A stretch of DNA of 38,699 nt, from contig JAFUJS010000014.1 of the NCBI GenBank assembly GCA_017468115.1, forward strand, positions 1-38,699, written 5' to 3'. The stretch is from Clostridia bacterium. GTDB lineage: Bacteria; Bacillota_A; Clostridia; Oscillospirales; CAG-272. Below, piece by piece: positions 22,920 to 35,722 of the stretch (position 1 is the first letter of the stretch; every line of letters starts with the position of its first letter). The notes beneath the pieces are model-generated. The model was not told where the DNA came from. It did not search any database and worked only from the letters and a program-made list of their open reading frames with translations. Both the position numbers and the translations under genes were made by a program.

Positions 22920-22953
22920 TAAAAAATCACGCAGAAATGCCTGCGTGATTTTT
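22920..22953 (-). terminator. Terminator of the uL15-like repeat protein gene
   Basis: AAATCACGCAG and CTGCGTGATTT pair around a short loop, with a T-rich run on the minus strand, 11 nt after the stop codon. Confidence 0.8.
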
Positions 22954-22963
22954 GTGTTTAAGA

Positions 22964-25387
22964 TTATTTTACCTTGTAGGTTACATGAACAGCCTTACCG
23001 CCTGTCAATGCAATCATTTCAAGTGCTGTGTCGGAGAATTCTCCTGCCTTAATGGTAAGTGGCTTGTCAAGAACACCTCTTGCAAGAACCTTAATGCTCT
23101 TAGCCTTCTTATCAACAAGTCGCTTCGCCTTGAGGGCATCAATATCAACTACTGCACCAGCCTCAAACGCCTTTGCAAGTGTGTCAATATTAACAATAGC
23201 CTTCTTATTGTCGTTCTTTGTGATGTAATCTACATCCTCTTCAACAACAACCTCGATTTGCTTTTCCTCAACGAGAGCATGTGCGTCCTCAGCGGCAACG
23301 CTTACTACAACAGGCTCTTCAACTGGTTCTTCTACAACCGGTTCTTCAACTGGTTCTTCTACAACCGGTTCCTCAACTGGTTCTTCTACAACCGGCTCTT
23401 CAGCAGGTTCTTCTACAACCGGCTCTTCAACCGGTTCTTCTACAACCGGCTCTTCAGCAGGTTCTTCTACAACCGGCTCTTCAACCGGTTCTTCTACAAC
23501 CGGTTCCTCAACTGGTTCTTCTACAACAGGCTCAACAATTGGCTCCTCGTATACAGGCTCAACCACAGGCTCTTCCTTTGGTTCTTCCTTTGGCTTAGAG
23601 GAAACGATAACAACGTTGCTATCCTGAACAAGTGCCTTAACAAGCTTGCGAGCGATAAGAGCATCTGTCTCCTCGTATGGGTACTTCTTAACGTAGTCAA
23701 CAACCTTAGCCTTTTCGTCCTTTTCAATCTCGAACTTAGCCATAACCATGTCAACAACTTCCTTAGCCTTTCTAAGACCAAGTCCGCTCTTAACCTTAAG
23801 GAGTGTTGGAACGTCAGCAAAGAGCTTATTGTCCTTTGCCTCGTGGTGGTACTTAGACTTATCAAGCTCACTAGGATCAATAGCGCAGTAGATAAGAACT
23901 GTCTTACCACGGAGCTTCATCTTAAAGAGCTGATCTCTGCCTCTGTTGTAGCTATCGAACTTCCAGCTGATTCTGGACTTAACACCCTTGTAGGAAAGAA
24001 TGTGGTTCTTTAGCTGACCGTAGTAATCCTTAACGCCATCATCACTCTGAATGAGGTTAGCGGTAAAGCTACGGTTGTACTTAATATCGATGGTGTTACC
24101 CTCGTTATCTATATATGTAGGAACAATTACAGGTGCTGGTGCAACAAATACGGTTTCTTCTTCCTCGGTTACATTTGTGTCTGCAACTGCCTCGGAAACA
24201 TCCTGGGCATTTGCTTCGGCTGCTGCTTCCTCAGCCTTATCAGACTCACCCTCAGTAGCATCGCCATCAGCCTCGCCACCCTCTTCTGAAGCCTCAGAGC
24301 CTGCTTCCTCAGCATTGTCCTCAGCAAATTCATATACAGGTGCTTCCTCTACCGACTCCTCTGCTACTGCATCGTCAACAACTTCCTCAACGGTGTCTTC
24401 AACGACAGGCTCCTCAACGGTATCGTCAACAGCTTCCTCAACGGTGTCTTCAACAACAGGCTCCTCAACAGTATCGTCAACAACTTCCTCAACAGCATCC
24501 TCAACGATAGGCTCCTCAACGATTTCCTCGTAGGTTTCCTCTACTGCCTCCTCAGCGTCAGCAGCAACGGAGTAAAGCTGAAGTGTAAATACAGAATCAA
24601 CCTCTGCCTTTTCAATAATAGCCTCGCCCTCAGGCTCAACACCCCAACCGATAAAGTCGCTGTCGTAGTCGTAGTCAGCAGGTGTGTTTAGCTTAACGTA
24701 GTGAGCTTCCTTATAGATAAACTTATCCGTTTCGCTGTCAACAAAGAGCAGCTCAATTACAGATGATGTATCAAGCTCATTATCGTTTGGCTCTGCATTT
24801 TCGTCAAATAGTGGGTACAGGTTGATTGCAAAGAGTGCTGTTGCATCATTCTTGCTGATAACAACGTCGCCATTCTTTTCAAAGCTCCAGCCCTTAACCT
24901 CTACAGGAACATCCTGCTCCTCAGGGAGAAGGGTGTTAATCTTGATCGCCTCAGAATCAAGAAGCTCACCATTTGCGTCCATATAGTTGAGCTGAATGAA
25001 TACGCCCTCTACTGTCTCTTCCTCTGTTTCCTCAACAGCAGCCTCTGCAGCCCAAATAGCGTAAAGAACTGTTGTACGAGTAAGAAGGAATTCAGACTCT
25101 GTGAGCATATACTGACCCTCCGGATCAAGGCTCCAGCCCAAAAACTCTTTTCCTTCCTTCTCGGCAGGTCTAACCCTTACCATAGAAAGGAACTTGTACT
25201 TTTCATAATCAATTTCGTACTCCTCGCCCTCTTCGGTTGTGTCAACGTAAACAACCTGACACTTTACGGTGGCGATAAGAATTGCAAGGAGCAAGCAAAC
25301 TCCTGCAAAGATGGCACAGCCAACAACATCAACATTAAAGATGTCGAAGCCGCCAATGCTTAAGAATAAACCGTTAACCAGATTCAT
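22964..25387 (-). CDS. Membrane-anchored acidic repeat protein with a uL15-like C-terminal domain
   Basis: The 807-residue protein has one membrane segment (about 19-41). Three regions resemble InlB/Listeria-Bacteroides beta-repeats (65-112, 130-195, 208-275; each with a GW motif such as FLGWSLDPEG). Three 17-residue acidic repeats follow (290-340), then a Glu/Ala-rich stretch and a basic globular domain (430-590; YNRSFTANLIQ, SRISWKFDSYNRGR). Eight 9-residue VVEEP-type repeats follow (621-692). The C-terminus (725-803; IVNIDTLAKAFEAG, ARGVLDKPLTIKAGEFS, ALTGGKAV) resembles the C-terminal part of ribosomal protein uL15. TTGGAGG precedes the ATG, and there is a near-consensus promoter. It is not the ribosomal L15 gene, which is much shorter and lies in the spc operon. 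Function unknown; an envelope or scaffold role is a guess. Confidence 0.8.
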   Translation of the reverse strand: MNLVNGLFLSIGGFDIFNVDVVGCAIFAGVCLLLAILIATVKCQVVYVDTTEEGEEYEIDYEKYKFLSMVRVRPAEKEGKEFLGWSLDPEGQYMLTESEFLLTRTTVLYAIWAAEAAVEETEEETVEGVFIQLNYMDANGELLDSEAIKINTLLPEEQDVPVEVKGWSFEKNGDVVISKNDATALFAINLYPLFDENAEPNDNELDTSSVIELLFVDSETDKFIYKEAHYVKLNTPADYDYDSDFIGWGVEPEGEAIIEKAEVDSVFTLQLYSVAADAEEAVEETYEEIVEEPIVEDAVEEVVDDTVEEPVVEDTVEEAVDDTVEEPVVEDTVEEVVDDAVAEESVEEAPVYEFAEDNAEEAGSEASEEGGEADGDATEGESDKAEEAAAEANAQDVSEAVADTNVTEEEETVFVAPAPVIVPTYIDNEGNTIDIKYNRSFTANLIQSDDGVKDYYGQLKNHILSYKGVKSRISWKFDSYNRGRDQLFKMKLRGKTVLIYCAIDPSELDKSKYHHEAKDNKLFADVPTLLKVKSGLGLRKAKEVVDMVMAKFEIEKDEKAKVVDYVKKYPYEETDALIARKLVKALVQDSNVVIVSSKPKEEPKEEPVVEPVYEEPIVEPVVEEPVEEPVVEEPVEEPVVEEPAEEPVVEEPVEEPVVEEPAEEPVVEEPVEEPVVEEPVEEPVVEEPVEEPVVVSVAAEDAHALVEEKQIEVVVEEDVDYITKNDNKKAIVNIDTLAKAFEAGAVVDIDALKAKRLVDKKAKSIKVLARGVLDKPLTIKAGEFSDTALEMIALTGGKAVHVTYKVK
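23312..23527 (-). repeat. Eight in-frame 27-bp repeats
   Basis: Encodes eight copies of VVEEP(V/A)EEP without gaps (216 bp). Copies are nearly identical at the DNA level, so copy number is likely to vary between strains. Confidence 0.9.
24368..24520 (-). repeat. Three in-frame 51-bp repeats
   Basis: Encodes VEEPIVEDAVEEVVDDT and two close variants, directly after the third InlB-like repeat of the same protein. Confidence 0.85.
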
Positions 25388-25421
25388 CTTTGTCCTCCAA
25401 TGTATATTTATTTGTATTATA

Positions 25422-25450
25422 ATTATACACTAATGTTATTTTTTTGTCAA
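25422..25450 (-). promoter_or_regulatory. Near-consensus promoter of the uL15-like repeat protein
   Basis: TTGACA (25445-25450), a 17-bp spacer and TATAAT (25422-25427) on the minus strand: a perfect sigma-A match, implying strong expression. Confidence 0.8.
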
Positions 25451-25643: not shown

Positions 25644-26885
25644 ATGGTAAATGAGATTATCGAAAGACTAAAGGAATTTGACGTGGACGTTGCAAACGGC
25701 GTTGAGGCAGAGCTTAAAAGGCAAAGAAGAGGTCTTGAGCTTATCGCTTCCGAAAACCTGGTTTCCGAGGCAGTTATGATTGCTATGGGCACTCCACTTA
25801 CAAATAAATATGCAGAGGGTTATCCCGAAAAAAGATACTACGGCGGATGTGAGTGCGTTGACGTGGTTGAGAAAATCGCTATCGAGCGCGCTTGTCAGCT
25901 TTTCGGCGCTGAGCATGCAAATGTACAGCCACACAGCGGTGCGCAGGCTAACACAGCAGTTTACTTTGCTCTTTTAAAGCCCGGCGACACAGTTCTCGGT
26001 ATGAACCTTGCACACGGCGGCCACCTTACACACGGTAGCCCTGTTAATATGTCCGGTAGCTACTTTAACTTTGTTCCCTACGGTGTAAACGAAAACGGCT
26101 TTATTGATTACGACGAGCTTGAGAAAATCGCTAAGGAAAACAGCCCTAAGCTTATCGTTGCAGGTGCTTCCGCTTACCCAAGAACAATTGACTTTGAAAG
26201 AATTTCAAAAATTGCTAAAGAGGTCGGCGCATACTTTATGGTTGATATGGCTCACATTGCCGGTCTTGTTGCAGCAGGCCTGCATCCATCTCCCGTTCCG
26301 TACGCTGACATTGTTACAACCACAACCCACAAGACCCTAAGAGGTCCACGTGGCGGTCTTATTCTCTGCCGTGAGGAGCTTGCTAAGGCTATTGACAAGG
26401 CAATCTTCCCGGGCACACAGGGCGGTCCTCTTATGCACACAATCGCATCTAAGGCTGTTTGCTTTGGCGAGGCACTTAAGCCCGAGTTCAAGGACTATCA
26501 GGCTCAAATCGTTAAGAACGCAAAGGCTCTTGCAGACACTCTTCTTGAGGAAGGCTTTGACCTTGTTTCCGGTGGCACAGACAACCACCTTATGCTTCTT
26601 GACCTTCGTCCCTTCAAGATTACCGGTAAGGAGCTTGAAAAGAGACTTGACGAGTGCTACATTACAGTTAACAAAAACGCAATCCCCAACGACCCTGAAA
26701 AGCCATTTGTTACAAGCGGCATAAGAATCGGTACTCCTGCGGTTACCTCACGTGGTCGTGTGGAGGAGGATATGGTTGTGCTTGGTAAGCTTATTAAGCT
26801 TTGCGCAACCGAATTTGAGGAAAAAGCAGATTACATCAGAGCCGAGGTTACAAAAATCTGCGACAAGTACCCGATTTACAAATAA
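25644..26885 (+). CDS. glyA: Serine hydroxymethyltransferase
   Basis: The 413-residue PLP enzyme interconverts serine and glycine with tetrahydrofolate, feeding one-carbon units to purine, thymidylate and methionine synthesis. Family blocks are all present: [13 protein letters not shown], the [15 protein letters not shown] substrate loop, [25 protein letters not shown], and the PLP lysine in [13 protein letters not shown] (about residue 230). Length is the bacterial norm. ATG 25644 was chosen because AAGGAG lies 8 nt upstream, rather than an in-frame start eight codons earlier. Its stop codon overlaps the ATG of the fur-like gene by one base. Confidence 0.97.
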
Positions 26886-27415: not shown

Positions 27416-27456
27416 TCTTTCGCTTATGATATTTTTAATTCTAAATGGAGGTAAAA

Positions 27457-28068
27457 ATGGACACTACAAAAACTCTTGAAGAACTTAACAAGCTAAAAGA
27501 GACTTTTGAAGGCCTTAAGAGCGAAGCTCTTAGCGAGGGTGAAGCCCTTAAGAACGCTGAAGGCGCATACAATTCTCTCTTGAATGCAAAGTCAAACATG
27601 CTTGGCTCTATGACTCCACTTTTCATCGTTTTTGGTATTATTTTGTTAGTTTTTGCAGCATTCCTTGTTGTTGCTATTCTTATACAAAGCAATAAAGCTG
27701 ATAAGGGTCTTTCCGGCGCTATCTCAGGTGGCTCCACTGATACATTCCTCGGCAGAAACAACGTAAACAAGAAGAACAAGATTCTTCTTATTCTTACAAT
27801 AGTTGCTATTGTTCTCTTCGTTCTTTCTGTTATTGCGGTTTATGTGCTTCAGTACGACCTTTCTGACCTTGAGCTTGCAATTTCTTCTGTGCTTGATAGT
27901 GCTATGCTTGCACAGCTGTATCCCGACGACCCGTTCTACTTTGATAAGATGATGAACGATAATCTTGTTGTTAGTATTTCTAAGCAAATTAGTATTATTG
28001 AAAGCAAGATTGATTCTGTTCTCACCGGCATTGCTAACGGTACGCTCGTTACGGACCCACAGGCATAG
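27457..28068 (+). CDS. secG: SecG-like protein-export subunit with extra N- and C-terminal domains
   Basis: The core (about 53-132 of 203) is SecG: a first membrane helix, VVAILIQSNKADKGLSGAISGG with the family GLSGAISGG loop, a DTFLGRNN stretch, and a second helix. SecG assists SecYE/SecA in moving proteins across the membrane. Ordinary SecG is about 75-80 residues; here about 50 helical, charged residues precede it and about 70 follow. ATG 27457 sits 4 nt after GGAGGT; the ATG at 27445 overlaps that site and is rejected. The next gene is rnr, the usual secG neighbour in Firmicutes, which supports the call. Confidence 0.82.
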   Translation: MDTTKTLEELNKLKETFEGLKSEALSEGEALKNAEGAYNSLLNAKSNMLGSMTPLFIVFGIILLVFAAFLVVAILIQSNKADKGLSGAISGGSTDTFLGRNNVNKKNKILLILTIVAIVLFVLSVIAVYVLQYDLSDLELAISSVLDSAMLAQLYPDDPFYFDKMMNDNLVVSISKQISIIESKIDSVLTGIANGTLVTDPQA

Positions 28069-28081
28069 CAAAATAAAAAAT

Positions 28082-28118
28082 ACCGCTTTGGAAATAATAG
28101 TCCAAGGCGGTTTTTATT
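28082..28118 (+). terminator. Terminator between secG and rnr
   Basis: ACCGCTTTGGA pairs with TCCAAGGCGGT and is followed by Ts. It may be partial, letting some transcription pass into rnr. Confidence 0.75.
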
Positions 28119-28147
28119 AGTCTATATTAAATTAAGGGGGATTATAT

Positions 28148-30406
28148 ATGTCTTATACTAAGCTTGAAGATACAATAATTAAATATGTTAGCTCTGACGA
28201 CTACACTCCCCTTCTGCCAAATGTATTACTTGAGGAAATAAGGGCATCCCTTCCCGAATATGAGGACCTAGACGAAAGCGTTTTTTGGCGTGCCGTGTCC
28301 AGACTTGAAAAGGGCTACCACCTTGCCTTTACCAAAAAGGGCAAGCTTGCAAATCCGAAGGAAACGGGCATTTACAAGGGGACTTACTCCTCTTCCTCAA
28401 AGGGCAACTTTGGTTTTGTTACAACAGACGATGGTGAGTTCTTCATTCCACCCCATTTTGGCGGTGGCGCTGTCTTTTCCGACACGGTTGCCATAAAAAG
28501 GATTGATATGTCCTCAAGGCACTACGGCAAGGGCAACGAGGCAGAGGTTATTTCTATAATTGAGCGTGGTCTTAAAACCGTTGTGGGCACACTTGTGGTT
28601 TACCATAGCGGCAGGGCAAGAATTTGCCAAATTGAGCCTGACAACGAAAGAATCAGGCTAAGGATTAATATTCCCGAAAAAGCCCTTGGTCAAAGGGAAA
28701 ACGGGGACAAGGTAATTTGCAAGATTGTTGCCTACCCCCAAAGCGACTACGGCTATGCCACAGGCGAGATTATCGCTTTTCTCGGCAAGGCTGACTCCCT
28801 TGAGGGTAACTACCGTGGTATTCTCCACGAAAACAACATTGTTACCGAGTTCAGAGATGAAACCGTTTCAGAGGCGCAAAAGGTATGCAAGGAGGAGGTT
28901 TCTCCCCTTGGCAGGGTGGATTTAAGAAATGAAACAATTTTCACAATTGACTCCCATGAGGCAAAGGATTTGGACGATGCAATTTCCGTCAAGGAAACAG
29001 AGGATGGTTACGTGCTGGGTGTTCATATTGCGGACGTTTCCCACTATGTAAGAAAGCGCTCCCACCTGGATAAAGAGGCCATGGAGCGTGGCACCAGCGT
29101 TTACTTTACCGACAAGGTTGTGCCTATGCTTCCAAAGGAGCTTTCAAACGGAATCTGCTCTCTTAATGAGGGTGTGGACAGGCTTGCCCTTTCCGCATTT
29201 ATGACTCTTGACAAGAGTGGTACCATTCTTTCAACGGAAATCAAAAACACCATCGTTCGCTCCAAGGTAAAGGGCATTTACAGCGAGCTTAATGATATTA
29301 TCGAAAAGAATGAGGGTAGCCAGTTCTTCCCGAAATACAGACACGTTATCGACGATTTTCAAATTATGCTAAGGCTTTACCGCCTACTTAAGGCTAAGAG
29401 CGAGTCCAAGGGAGCTATGGAGCTGGAAAGCGAGGAGGCCAAGATTGTTCTTAACGAAAAGGGACATCCTGTTGACGTTGTAAAGCGCGAGCGTGGAGAA
29501 AGCGAAAGGCTTATTGAGCAGTTTATGCTCTGCGCCAACGAGGGTGTTGCCACCTTCCTTTATAACGCATCAATCCCCTGCGTTTATCGTGTTCACGACG
29601 AGCCGGACAGAGAAAAAATTGACGCCTTTGCAATCTTTGCAAGGAACCTTGGCATTGATGTTTCTCCCTTGAACGCAAGGAAAACAATTACCCCCTCACA
29701 GCTTTCAAGAATTCTTGAGGATGCTGACAAAAAGGGGCAAAAGCTGATTGTTTCAAGCATACTTCTCCGCTCGCTTATGAAGGCAAAATACTCCTCTGTG
29801 CAAAAGCCGCACTTTGGTCTTAACACAGAGTGCTACTGCCACTTTACCTCTCCAATCAGGCGCTACCCGGACCTGTCTGTTCACAGAATTATAAAGGCGC
29901 TTTTGGCAGGAGAGATTAATGAAAGCACGGTTGGAGAATATGAAAGGCTTGCAAGCCTTAGTGCAGAGCTTTCAACCGACAACGAAATCCGTGCGGTTCA
30001 TGCGGAAAGAGATATTGAGGAGCTTTACAAGGCTGTCTATATGCACGACAGAATCGGCGAGGAATTTGAATGTGTTATTTCCTCTGTTAACTCCTTTGGC
30101 TTCTTTGCAAGGACCGAAAACCTTTGCGAGGGTCTTGTTCCCATCGAAAGCCTTGGCGGCGGCTTTGTCTTTGACAAGGAAAACCATATACTTTCAAGGG
30201 GCAGAACCATTTACCGTCTGGGTATGAGGGTTAAGGTAAGGGTCGACGATGTGAACATTAGCCTAAGGCAGGTTAATTTCCGGCTTGTTAAGGGCGAGGG
30301 CGACTCCCCTGCTCCAAAAGAGATGATTACAAGACACAAAAAGGCAGAAAGGGACATCGGGCGCTACCGCCATCACAAAAAGGCACACACAAGAAAAAGA
30401 CGCTAA
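28148..30406 (+). CDS. rnr: Ribonuclease R
   Basis: The 752-residue 3'-to-5' exoribonuclease degrades structured RNA and takes part in trans-translation quality control. Domain order: an N-terminal winged-helix region, cold-shock domains (GNFGFVTTDDGEFFIPP near 87-102), the RNB catalytic domain with IDSHEAKDLDDAIS (metal-binding D268, D274, D276, D277), HFTSPIRRYPDLSVHR later, and a C-terminal S1 domain (about 635-715) followed by a basic tail (RYRHHKKAHTRKRR). AAGGGG precedes the ATG. It follows secG, as in many Firmicutes. Confidence 0.96.
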   Translation: MSYTKLEDTIIKYVSSDDYTPLLPNVLLEEIRASLPEYEDLDESVFWRAVSRLEKGYHLAFTKKGKLANPKETGIYKGTYSSSSKGNFGFVTTDDGEFFIPPHFGGGAVFSDTVAIKRIDMSSRHYGKGNEAEVISIIERGLKTVVGTLVVYHSGRARICQIEPDNERIRLRINIPEKALGQRENGDKVICKIVAYPQSDYGYATGEIIAFLGKADSLEGNYRGILHENNIVTEFRDETVSEAQKVCKEEVSPLGRVDLRNETIFTIDSHEAKDLDDAISVKETEDGYVLGVHIADVSHYVRKRSHLDKEAMERGTSVYFTDKVVPMLPKELSNGICSLNEGVDRLALSAFMTLDKSGTILSTEIKNTIVRSKVKGIYSELNDIIEKNEGSQFFPKYRHVIDDFQIMLRLYRLLKAKSESKGAMELESEEAKIVLNEKGHPVDVVKRERGESERLIEQFMLCANEGVATFLYNASIPCVYRVHDEPDREKIDAFAIFARNLGIDVSPLNARKTITPSQLSRILEDADKKGQKLIVSSILLRSLMKAKYSSVQKPHFGLNTECYCHFTSPIRRYPDLSVHRIIKALLAGEINESTVGEYERLASLSAELSTDNEIRAVHAERDIEELYKAVYMHDRIGEEFECVISSVNSFGFFARTENLCEGLVPIESLGGGFVFDKENHILSRGRTIYRLGMRVKVRVDDVNISLRQVNFRLVKGEGDSPAPKEMITRHKKAERDIGRYRHHKKAHTRKRR

Positions 30407-34913: not shown

Positions 34914-34938
34914 AAAAGGCGGTTAATCCGCCTTTTTT
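34912..34938. terminator. Bidirectional terminator between fucosidase and ECF subunit genes
   Basis: AAAAAAGGCGG pairs with CCGCCTTTTTT around TTAAT and overlaps both stop codons' flanks; T-runs exist on each strand. Confidence 0.85.
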
Positions 34939-35531
34939 TCTTCAATTTCGGACACGGGGTCCTGTTTTTTCGGCTTTTGGTCAAGGAGCAGCACCTTTCG
35001 CAGCACCCTTACCACCGGCTTGTAAATCACAATTGCTATTACTGTGTTTATGCTGTATTTAATCAGATTGAAGGGCAAAAATACAGGCAAAAGCATGCCG
35101 TTTACCACCTCTTGGGGTGTGCCGTTATAGTGAGGGGTTATAAGAAAGTTCCAAAGTATCATTGTCCCTGTTGTAACAAGTGTGCCAAGGACAAGACCGA
35201 TAATTGCCATATAAAAGCGCCTGTTTTTCTTGTAAAGCAGGGACGGAATTATTGCGTAGGTTACGCTGGAGATTATATTCATAACCATTCCAATGGGTCC
35301 TGTGGTGCTTATTGTTACCATTTCAACAAAGGAAACAACAAGAGAGATAATTATTGTGGCGTAGGGACCCAATGCAAAGCCTGCCATAACTATTACCGAG
35401 TCCTTAAAGTCGAAGCCCAGAAATTCGTTAAATTTGATTGGTACAACCAAGCTTGTAAGCACCGATAAAACATATGCAAGGGCGCAGAAAACACCGATTG
35501 TGGTAATGCTTCTTGCCTTTTTTGATTTCAT
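34923..35531 (-). CDS. ribU: ECF transporter S-component, riboflavin (RibU)-like
   Basis: The 202-residue membrane protein has about six hydrophobic helices and the motif FLGFDFKDSVIVMAGFALGP, typical of RibU-type S-components that capture riboflavin for a shared ECF energising module. The N-terminus ITTIGVFCALAYVLSVLTS also fits the ECF family. ATG 35531 follows AGAAGGAG. An FMN riboswitch and its terminator lie directly upstream, which strongly supports flavin transport. The C-terminal tail is charged (KKQDPVSEIEEKKAD). The energising module is not in this window. Confidence 0.93.
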   Translation of the reverse strand: MKSKKARSITTIGVFCALAYVLSVLTSLVVPIKFNEFLGFDFKDSVIVMAGFALGPYATIIISLVVSFVEMVTISTTGPIGMVMNIISSVTYAIIPSLLYKKNRRFYMAIIGLVLGTLVTTGTMILWNFLITPHYNGTPQEVVNGMLLPVFLPFNLIKYSINTVIAIVIYKPVVRVLRKVLLLDQKPKKQDPVSEIEEKKAD

Positions 35532-35577: not shown

Positions 35578-35604
35578 ATAGATACGCATAAGTCAGCATA
35601 CTCT

Positions 35605-35707
35605 TCTTTCATCCAGACTGTACTGTCGGCTTTGGAATTTCACCAAATCAACCAAAAAGGCTCGTGGGCTATACCACCGGTAGGGAATTGCACCCTGCCC
35701 CGAAGAT
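35605..35707 (-). ncRNA. FMN riboswitch (RFN element)
   Basis: The minus strand reads the conserved RFN blocks in order: ATCTTCGGGGCAGGGTG, AATTCCCTACCGG, GGTATAGCCCACGAG, TTGATTTGGTGAAATTCC, and GCCGACAGTACAGTCTGGATG, with the family spacings. It sits in the leader of the RibU-type transporter gene. Confidence 0.96.
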
Positions 35708-35722
35708 TATTTATTTTACTTT

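Follow-up and report, generated by a model that had tools for sequence, protein, structure and literature searches.

The modules described below have their closest known counterparts in the bacterial ribosomal protein uL15 (rplO; TIGR01071, PF00828), in the InlB B-repeat or Listeria-Bacteroides repeat (PF09479), in the SipW-like or archaeal-type signal peptidases I (NF046067, TIGR02228), and in the double-wing domains of MmcQ/YjbR (PF04237), DUF1801/YdhG, DUF5655 (PF18899) and the C-terminal domain of T4 MotA. InlB B-repeats are usually surface modules, and uL15 carries a Gly/Arg-rich N-terminal motif that embeds in rRNA. For the YjbR family, binding of DNA by the double wing has been argued (PMC7641849). 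The locus examined in this study lies in a window of 38,699 nucleotides, i.e., the whole stretch of DNA that was analysed, in which a reading frame on the reverse strand (22964-25387) encodes a protein of 807 aa. Its anatomy is practically certain as to domains, helix and tracts, and is laid out here in the direction of the gene, starting from the divergent neighbour:

25644..26882, forward strand: divergent neighbour, constant across homologous loci and outside the tail system
25422..25450, reverse strand: perfect sigma-A-type promoter, TTGACA-17-TATAAT, from the sequence and homologous loci
25394..25398, reverse strand: GGAGG ribosome-binding site ahead of the ATG, read from the sequence
22964..25387, reverse strand: membrane-anchored protein of 807 aa, InlB-like / acidic / double-wing / acidic / uL15
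25268..25327, reverse strand: N-terminal membrane helix (aa 21-40), a helix in the structure model and N-out/C-in by charge counts
25040..25264, reverse strand: InlB B-repeat-like module (aa 42-116), by predicted fold
24803..25009, reverse strand: second beta module (about aa 127-195), without a match alone, from the structure model
24560..24775, reverse strand: third beta module (about aa 205-276), without a match alone, from the structure model
24125..24559, reverse strand: acidic low-complexity tract 1 (aa 277-421, net -58)
23597..24124, reverse strand: basic "mid" domain (aa 422-597), a divergent DUF5655/YjbR double-wing fold
23306..23596, reverse strand: acidic repeat tract 2 (aa 598-694)
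22988..23221, reverse strand: uL15 C-terminal domain (aa 723-800), by PF00828 (E 2.4e-12) and predicted fold
22922..22953, reverse strand: terminator-like hairpin directly 3' of the stop codon

The initial annotation had read the protein as a membrane helix followed by InlB-type repeats, Glu-rich repeats, a basic domain and a C-terminus resembling uL15. This description was borne out: the N-terminal helix is present in the structure model, the predicted structure has the InlB fold in the first of the three repeats, the other two being beta modules without a match of their own, and both acidic tracts are in place. The full-length model has a mean pLDDT of 51.9, with low confidence in the mid region (blocks about 24-61). 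PF09479 scores 14.9 bits in the 807-aa protein, below the cut-off of 27, and reaches the cut-off in the relatives at L188, L189 and L204. At the C-terminus (aa 731-800), PF00828 (Ribosomal_L27A) scores 47.5 bits against a cut-off of 21.5, and structure prediction, which had been proposed as the check, returned the uL15 fold; the match and the fold together rule out a chance resemblance. Of 8000 candidates that were scored, 948 are homologues at E ≤ 0.001, and the top 120 of these were listed.

The promoter, already noticed for its strength, is perfect and was kept, with a spacing of 17 or 18, at 22 of 23 homologous loci, the exception being L019. In shuffled upstream DNA the best promoter score averages 8.7 out of 12, and perfect promoters are uncommon: 47 were found in 604,710 bases (35 loci and the window, both strands), 23 of them belonging to genes of the 807-aa type. 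Since the promoter, the GGAGG and the terminator-like hairpin frame the gene, it probably forms a single-gene transcript; the protein is probably also highly expressed. The divergent neighbour, which we take to be glyA-like, is adjacent at 23 of 26 window-type loci, and at the remaining three (L015, L018, L020) the 807-aa-type gene sits at a contig end. Further along the window, positions 27445-30403 of the forward strand encode a membrane-like protein of 207 aa, with relatives detected by BLAST at 14 of the 35 loci recovered by the genome scan, and a protein of 752 aa, with relatives at 21 of them; an FMN riboswitch (35597-35711, reverse strand, 122.1 bits) probably controls an ORF that is membrane-transporter-like by eye (34926-35531, reverse strand).

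The C-terminal domain departs from ribosomal uL15 in several respects. The whole-protein equivalog TIGR01071 scores 42.3 bits against a cut-off of 77.95 and aligns over model positions 67-143 only, and the Gly/Arg-rich N-terminal rRNA-binding motif is missing from the window protein. When ORFs were scanned whole, this motif was found in 49, all of them frames of 147-212 aa fetched as ribosomal uL15, and in no other uL15-domain ORF so scanned; in alignment A4 it appears in 8 ribosomal rows, the 19 other rows being trimmed to the domain. A uL15 gene of ribosomal size was found in 19 of 22 related genomes and in none of G008, G016 and G019, for which their draft state can account. Because the rRNA-binding part is absent and an ordinary uL15 gene is found in these 19 genomes, we conclude on sequence grounds that the 807-aa protein is not a ribosomal protein. 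A replacement of the ribosomal gene is likewise ruled out by the 19 ribosomal-size copies. The last helix of the domain has a KMIxLTGG-like pattern in 59 of 72 extra-ribosomal domains versus 0 of 47 ribosomal ones (K 79%, M 83%, I 94%, L 78%, T 69%), the M and L standing where ribosomal uL15 shows K/A and A/K; four columns in which ribosomal uL15 shows Y (98%), E (91%), A (91%) and E (96%) are altered in the extra-ribosomal copies. We regard the changed helix as a sign of a new contact. The net charge is positive in 56 of 72 extra-ribosomal domains (median +3), compared with 11 of 47 ribosomal C-terminal domains (median 0).

The uL15 tree, of 82 columns, is weak; its ribosomal rows come from fetched loci. 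The ribosomal rows fall on one side in a quick tree of 119 rows (SH-aLRT 97), and do so again in a tree of 109 rows from which the long-branch L190 was removed as well (support 100/99). In the careful tree of 110 rows, 9 rows with long ends or representing a fragment having been removed, they need two changes and are one-sided in 17% of bootstraps. Since the 119- and 109-row trees agree and the 110-row tree, which retains L190, differs, one split between ribosomal and extra-ribosomal uL15 is favoured, not proven.

The basic domain that the initial annotation had placed ahead of the uL15-like C-terminus can now be assigned: profile comparison and fold put mid in the DUF5655/YjbR/MotA-CTD superfamily, and it is a divergent double-wing domain. 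Its profile (A3) finds three DUF5655 proteins in 298 other genomes (E 2.4e-9 to 4.4e-7), and hhalign of mid versus DUF5655 gives 96.9% (E 1.5e-10); L077, the fourth DUF5655 protein compared, does not reach significance. PF18899 and PF04237 give no match up to E 1 in the window's own copy, and the best Pfam matches among 38 mid members are DUF5655 at E 0.0014 (one member) and YjbR at E 0.079 (two members). Mid is net positive in 117 of 117 copies (median +9), two DUF5655 copies (-3 and 0) being left out, and 16 of its positions are at least 70% basic versus 4 acidic.

Mid and the uL15 domain recur as a C-terminal tail in 113 distinct ORFs (116 minus the three DUF5655 proteins L122-L124; some are cut by the ends of contigs or stretches), of which 58 have both domains, 41 mid only and 14 uL15 only; host proteins were examined on 34 stretches from genomes with several PF00828 matches, plus other fetched loci. 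The uL15 domain ends at most 15 residues from the end of the frame in 67 of 72 cases, and the spacers preceding it carry a net negative charge in 88 of 91 cases (median -0.22 per residue). The two domains need not occur together: 14 of the 72 extra-ribosomal uL15 domains lack mid in the ORF as fetched, and 41 of the 113 ORFs carry mid alone. Mid is the more constant element. The hosts include giant MBG-repeat proteins that are probably adhesins (L180, L182), further large proteins that are surface-like (L030, L031, L073, L076), polytopic proteins for which 6 to 8 membrane segments are predicted (L202, L203, L205, L206, L207) and short membrane proteins. Mid without uL15 occurs on DUF5305 proteins (L028) and on long proteins that are coiled-coil-like by eye and for which a script found no membrane segment (L108, L112, L113, L118); the genomes of the latter also encode membrane proteins with the tail, for which these long proteins are possible scaffold partners. 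They contain repeated YD.LAEK.A-type motifs, with mid at the end. An alternative C-terminal module (GVVWPE../GVMFRRRGRKVYWFDPDGK) takes the place of uL15 in L027, L028, L110 and L114; for that of L114, no Pfam model scores above its cut-off and NCBIfam gives no match. A phage or mobile origin was set aside on a weak test: of the 33 pattern matches that the mid profile produced in a single scan of viral contigs, none was confirmed as a relative.

SipW-like signal peptidases end in uL15 alone (L066:3697-4809, L068:2284-3453, L072:3800-4984, L075:3109-4242), the L075 protein matching NF046067 and TIGR02228, both below cut-off. PF00828 is present in 24 and absent from 96 of 120 listed among their 1723 homologues; the tail is an add-on to these enzymes. 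Genes adjoining the peptidases start with a GGVYATW/GGVFAVW-type signal region, presumably TasA/camelysin-like.

All 35 loci recovered by the genome scan belong to Clostridia, Clostridiales or Oscillospiraceae assembled from metagenomes, many of them of the ruminant hindgut. Mid was found in 109 of the 248 genomes sampled from the order of G022, in 22 of 146 genomes of the family and 6 of 245 genomes (two matches being weak) of the order of G001, the central genome, and in 4 of 299 phylum-sample genomes, i.e., G001 itself and three with DUF5655. The frequencies 109/248 and 6/245 are too unlike for the orders of G022 and G001 to be the same, which excludes a tail confined to a single bacterial order; given its absence from most genomes of the window-type order, mid is not something that these cells generally require. 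In the phylum sample, PF00828 occurs once in 295 of the 299 genomes, is missing from three and exceeds one copy only in G001. At least two matches occur in 46 of the 248 genomes of the G022 order; in G636 the extra match amounts to 33 aa at the edge of a contig. The 113 matches in 45 of these 46 genomes comprise 45 that score best and have ribosomal size, and 68 additional ones, whose frames measure 33 to 5,398 aa and include several contig-edge pieces. G604 has 14 matches in one genome; its thirteen extra domains (L174-L179) include contig-edge pieces, and several lie in large frames with two membrane segments preceding the tail.

The distribution of K/R residues bears on the side of the membrane. 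Among 118 window-type relatives (3 of 121 lack such a membrane segment and were left out), the 30 residues that follow the first membrane segment hold more K/R than all residues before it in 115, with 2 ties and 1 reversal; with flanks of equal length, 86 of the same 118 have more K/R after, 29 are ties and 3 are reversed. In the 93 tail-bearing ORFs with an upstream membrane segment, K/R is higher after the last segment in 81, lower in 8 and equal in 4, some exceptions stemming from crude segment boundaries. The proteins of L030/L031, L073/L076, L180, L182 and L183 show the order large N-terminal region, membrane segment, basic residues, tail. Because of the K/R pattern and of the tail following the last membrane segment in proteins with a large N-terminus, the most likely location of the tail is the cytoplasm. 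It would follow that the InlB-like modules are, unusually, cytoplasmic too, with which two relatives agree: L204:499-1614 combines an InlB repeat, probably cytosolic, with mid and uL15 and no membrane segment was found in it, and L189 has an InlB-like stretch directly after the second membrane segment, ahead of the tail. An extracellular C-terminus with a structural or adhesive role, which the usual location of InlB B-repeats would suggest, is hardly credible against the charge pattern, these two proteins and the occurrence of mid on proteins without a detected membrane segment.

In view of the C-terminal position of uL15, the acidic spacers, the basic domains and the changed helix, we propose a docking tail with a shared partner, a reading that we consider reasonably probable. 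The 807-aa protein has a single membrane helix; its tiny N-terminus would lie outside and the rest in the cytoplasm, where long acidic spacers would hold a terminal two-domain docking module, i.e., the basic double wing and a domain descended from the C-terminal half of uL15, away from the membrane. The tail would bind one shared cytoplasmic partner, linking surface and membrane proteins to the cell interior. The likeliest class of partner is a polyanion, namely nucleic acid, which the conserved basic surface of the double wing would contact, and the uL15-derived domain would make a second contact with its new conserved hydrophobic helix. We lean slightly toward this explanation as a whole, a cytoplasmic docking module with a polyanion as its likeliest class of partner; nucleic acid in particular is a tentative choice, the most likely partner with a protein scaffold as a close second. 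The conserved basic positions of mid could instead serve contacts with proteins or with the acidic spacers, the DUF5655 copies scored are not basic, and the change of the uL15 helix fits a protein interface at least as well. In a pure protein scaffold, tails would bind each other or the long mid proteins, and a cortical layer without nucleic acid would be assembled from acidic spacers and basic domains. Such a layer, possible but rather doubtful, would suit the new hydrophobic helix, the long coiled-coil-like mid proteins in genomes that also have membrane tails, and the flanking of basic domains by acidic spacers; it sits less well with the 16 basic positions kept in mid, with a fold class argued to bind DNA (PMC7641849), and with the KMIxLTGG-like pattern of uL15 tails without mid in the ORF (L073, L196). 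These same ORFs leave docking of the new helix on mid in cis unsupported, since a pattern that occurs without mid is no simple cis docking surface.

To explain a ribosomal fold on a membrane protein, the initial annotation had offered a ribosome or RNA anchor and co-option as a structural domain. Co-option of the domain is supported, and the anchor fares poorly as the motif is absent and the helix has diverged. With an anchor, the uL15 domain would dock on the 50S subunit and keep ribosomes at the membrane, for which the true homology to uL15 and the presence of the tail on signal peptidases, which belong to the secretion path, could be invoked. This is unlikely: no extra-ribosomal ORF examined has the rRNA-binding N-terminal motif, the ribosomal site is already taken by the retained uL15 gene (19/22), the conserved ribosomal columns are changed, and the TIGR01071 score is far under its cut-off.

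If the docking tail has a single partner, it would provide a link between inside and outside in gut organisms known here from metagenome assemblies only; bacteria are not known to have a link of this kind. A docking system in at least two orders of uncultured gut Clostridia, tying the surface to nucleic acid or a cortical scaffold, is a speculative extension; there, polytopic proteins, surface proteins of giant size and a small, abundant scaffold protein of the membrane would carry the standard tail, and signal peptidases uL15 alone. A domain of a core ribosomal protein has become a mobile part of membrane proteins. Databases name members P0002, P0006 and P0031 "uL15 family ribosomal protein," a name that conceals membrane proteins and could distort counts of marker genes or of ribosomes. 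This phrase occurs in no paper of the open-access literature searched, nor was a description of this tail found there, subscription papers being mostly outside that scope. The folds are known; their deployment as a standard tail on membrane proteins that are otherwise unrelated appears, within the open-access literature searched, to be new.

Compared with bacterial uL15, the 807-aa protein shares the entire C-terminal domain of 72 positions, by sequence and predicted fold, and in both the domain is C-terminal; unlike uL15, it lacks the N-terminal rRNA-binding extension and has a different helix pattern, and the extra-ribosomal domain is found on membrane proteins beside a coexisting ordinary uL15 gene. 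Mid differs from other double-wing domains by a conserved extra C-terminal segment (YPYE...L..LIK) and by serving as the tail of membrane proteins. The InlB-like modules, whose copy here stays below the Pfam cut-off, differ from PF09479 repeats in being cytoplasmic by charge, and the peptidases of L066, L068, L072 and L075 add a uL15 tail to the SipW-like, archaeal-type signal peptidase I. If the docking system proves true, it would functionally resemble the tails of eukaryotic adhesion receptors.
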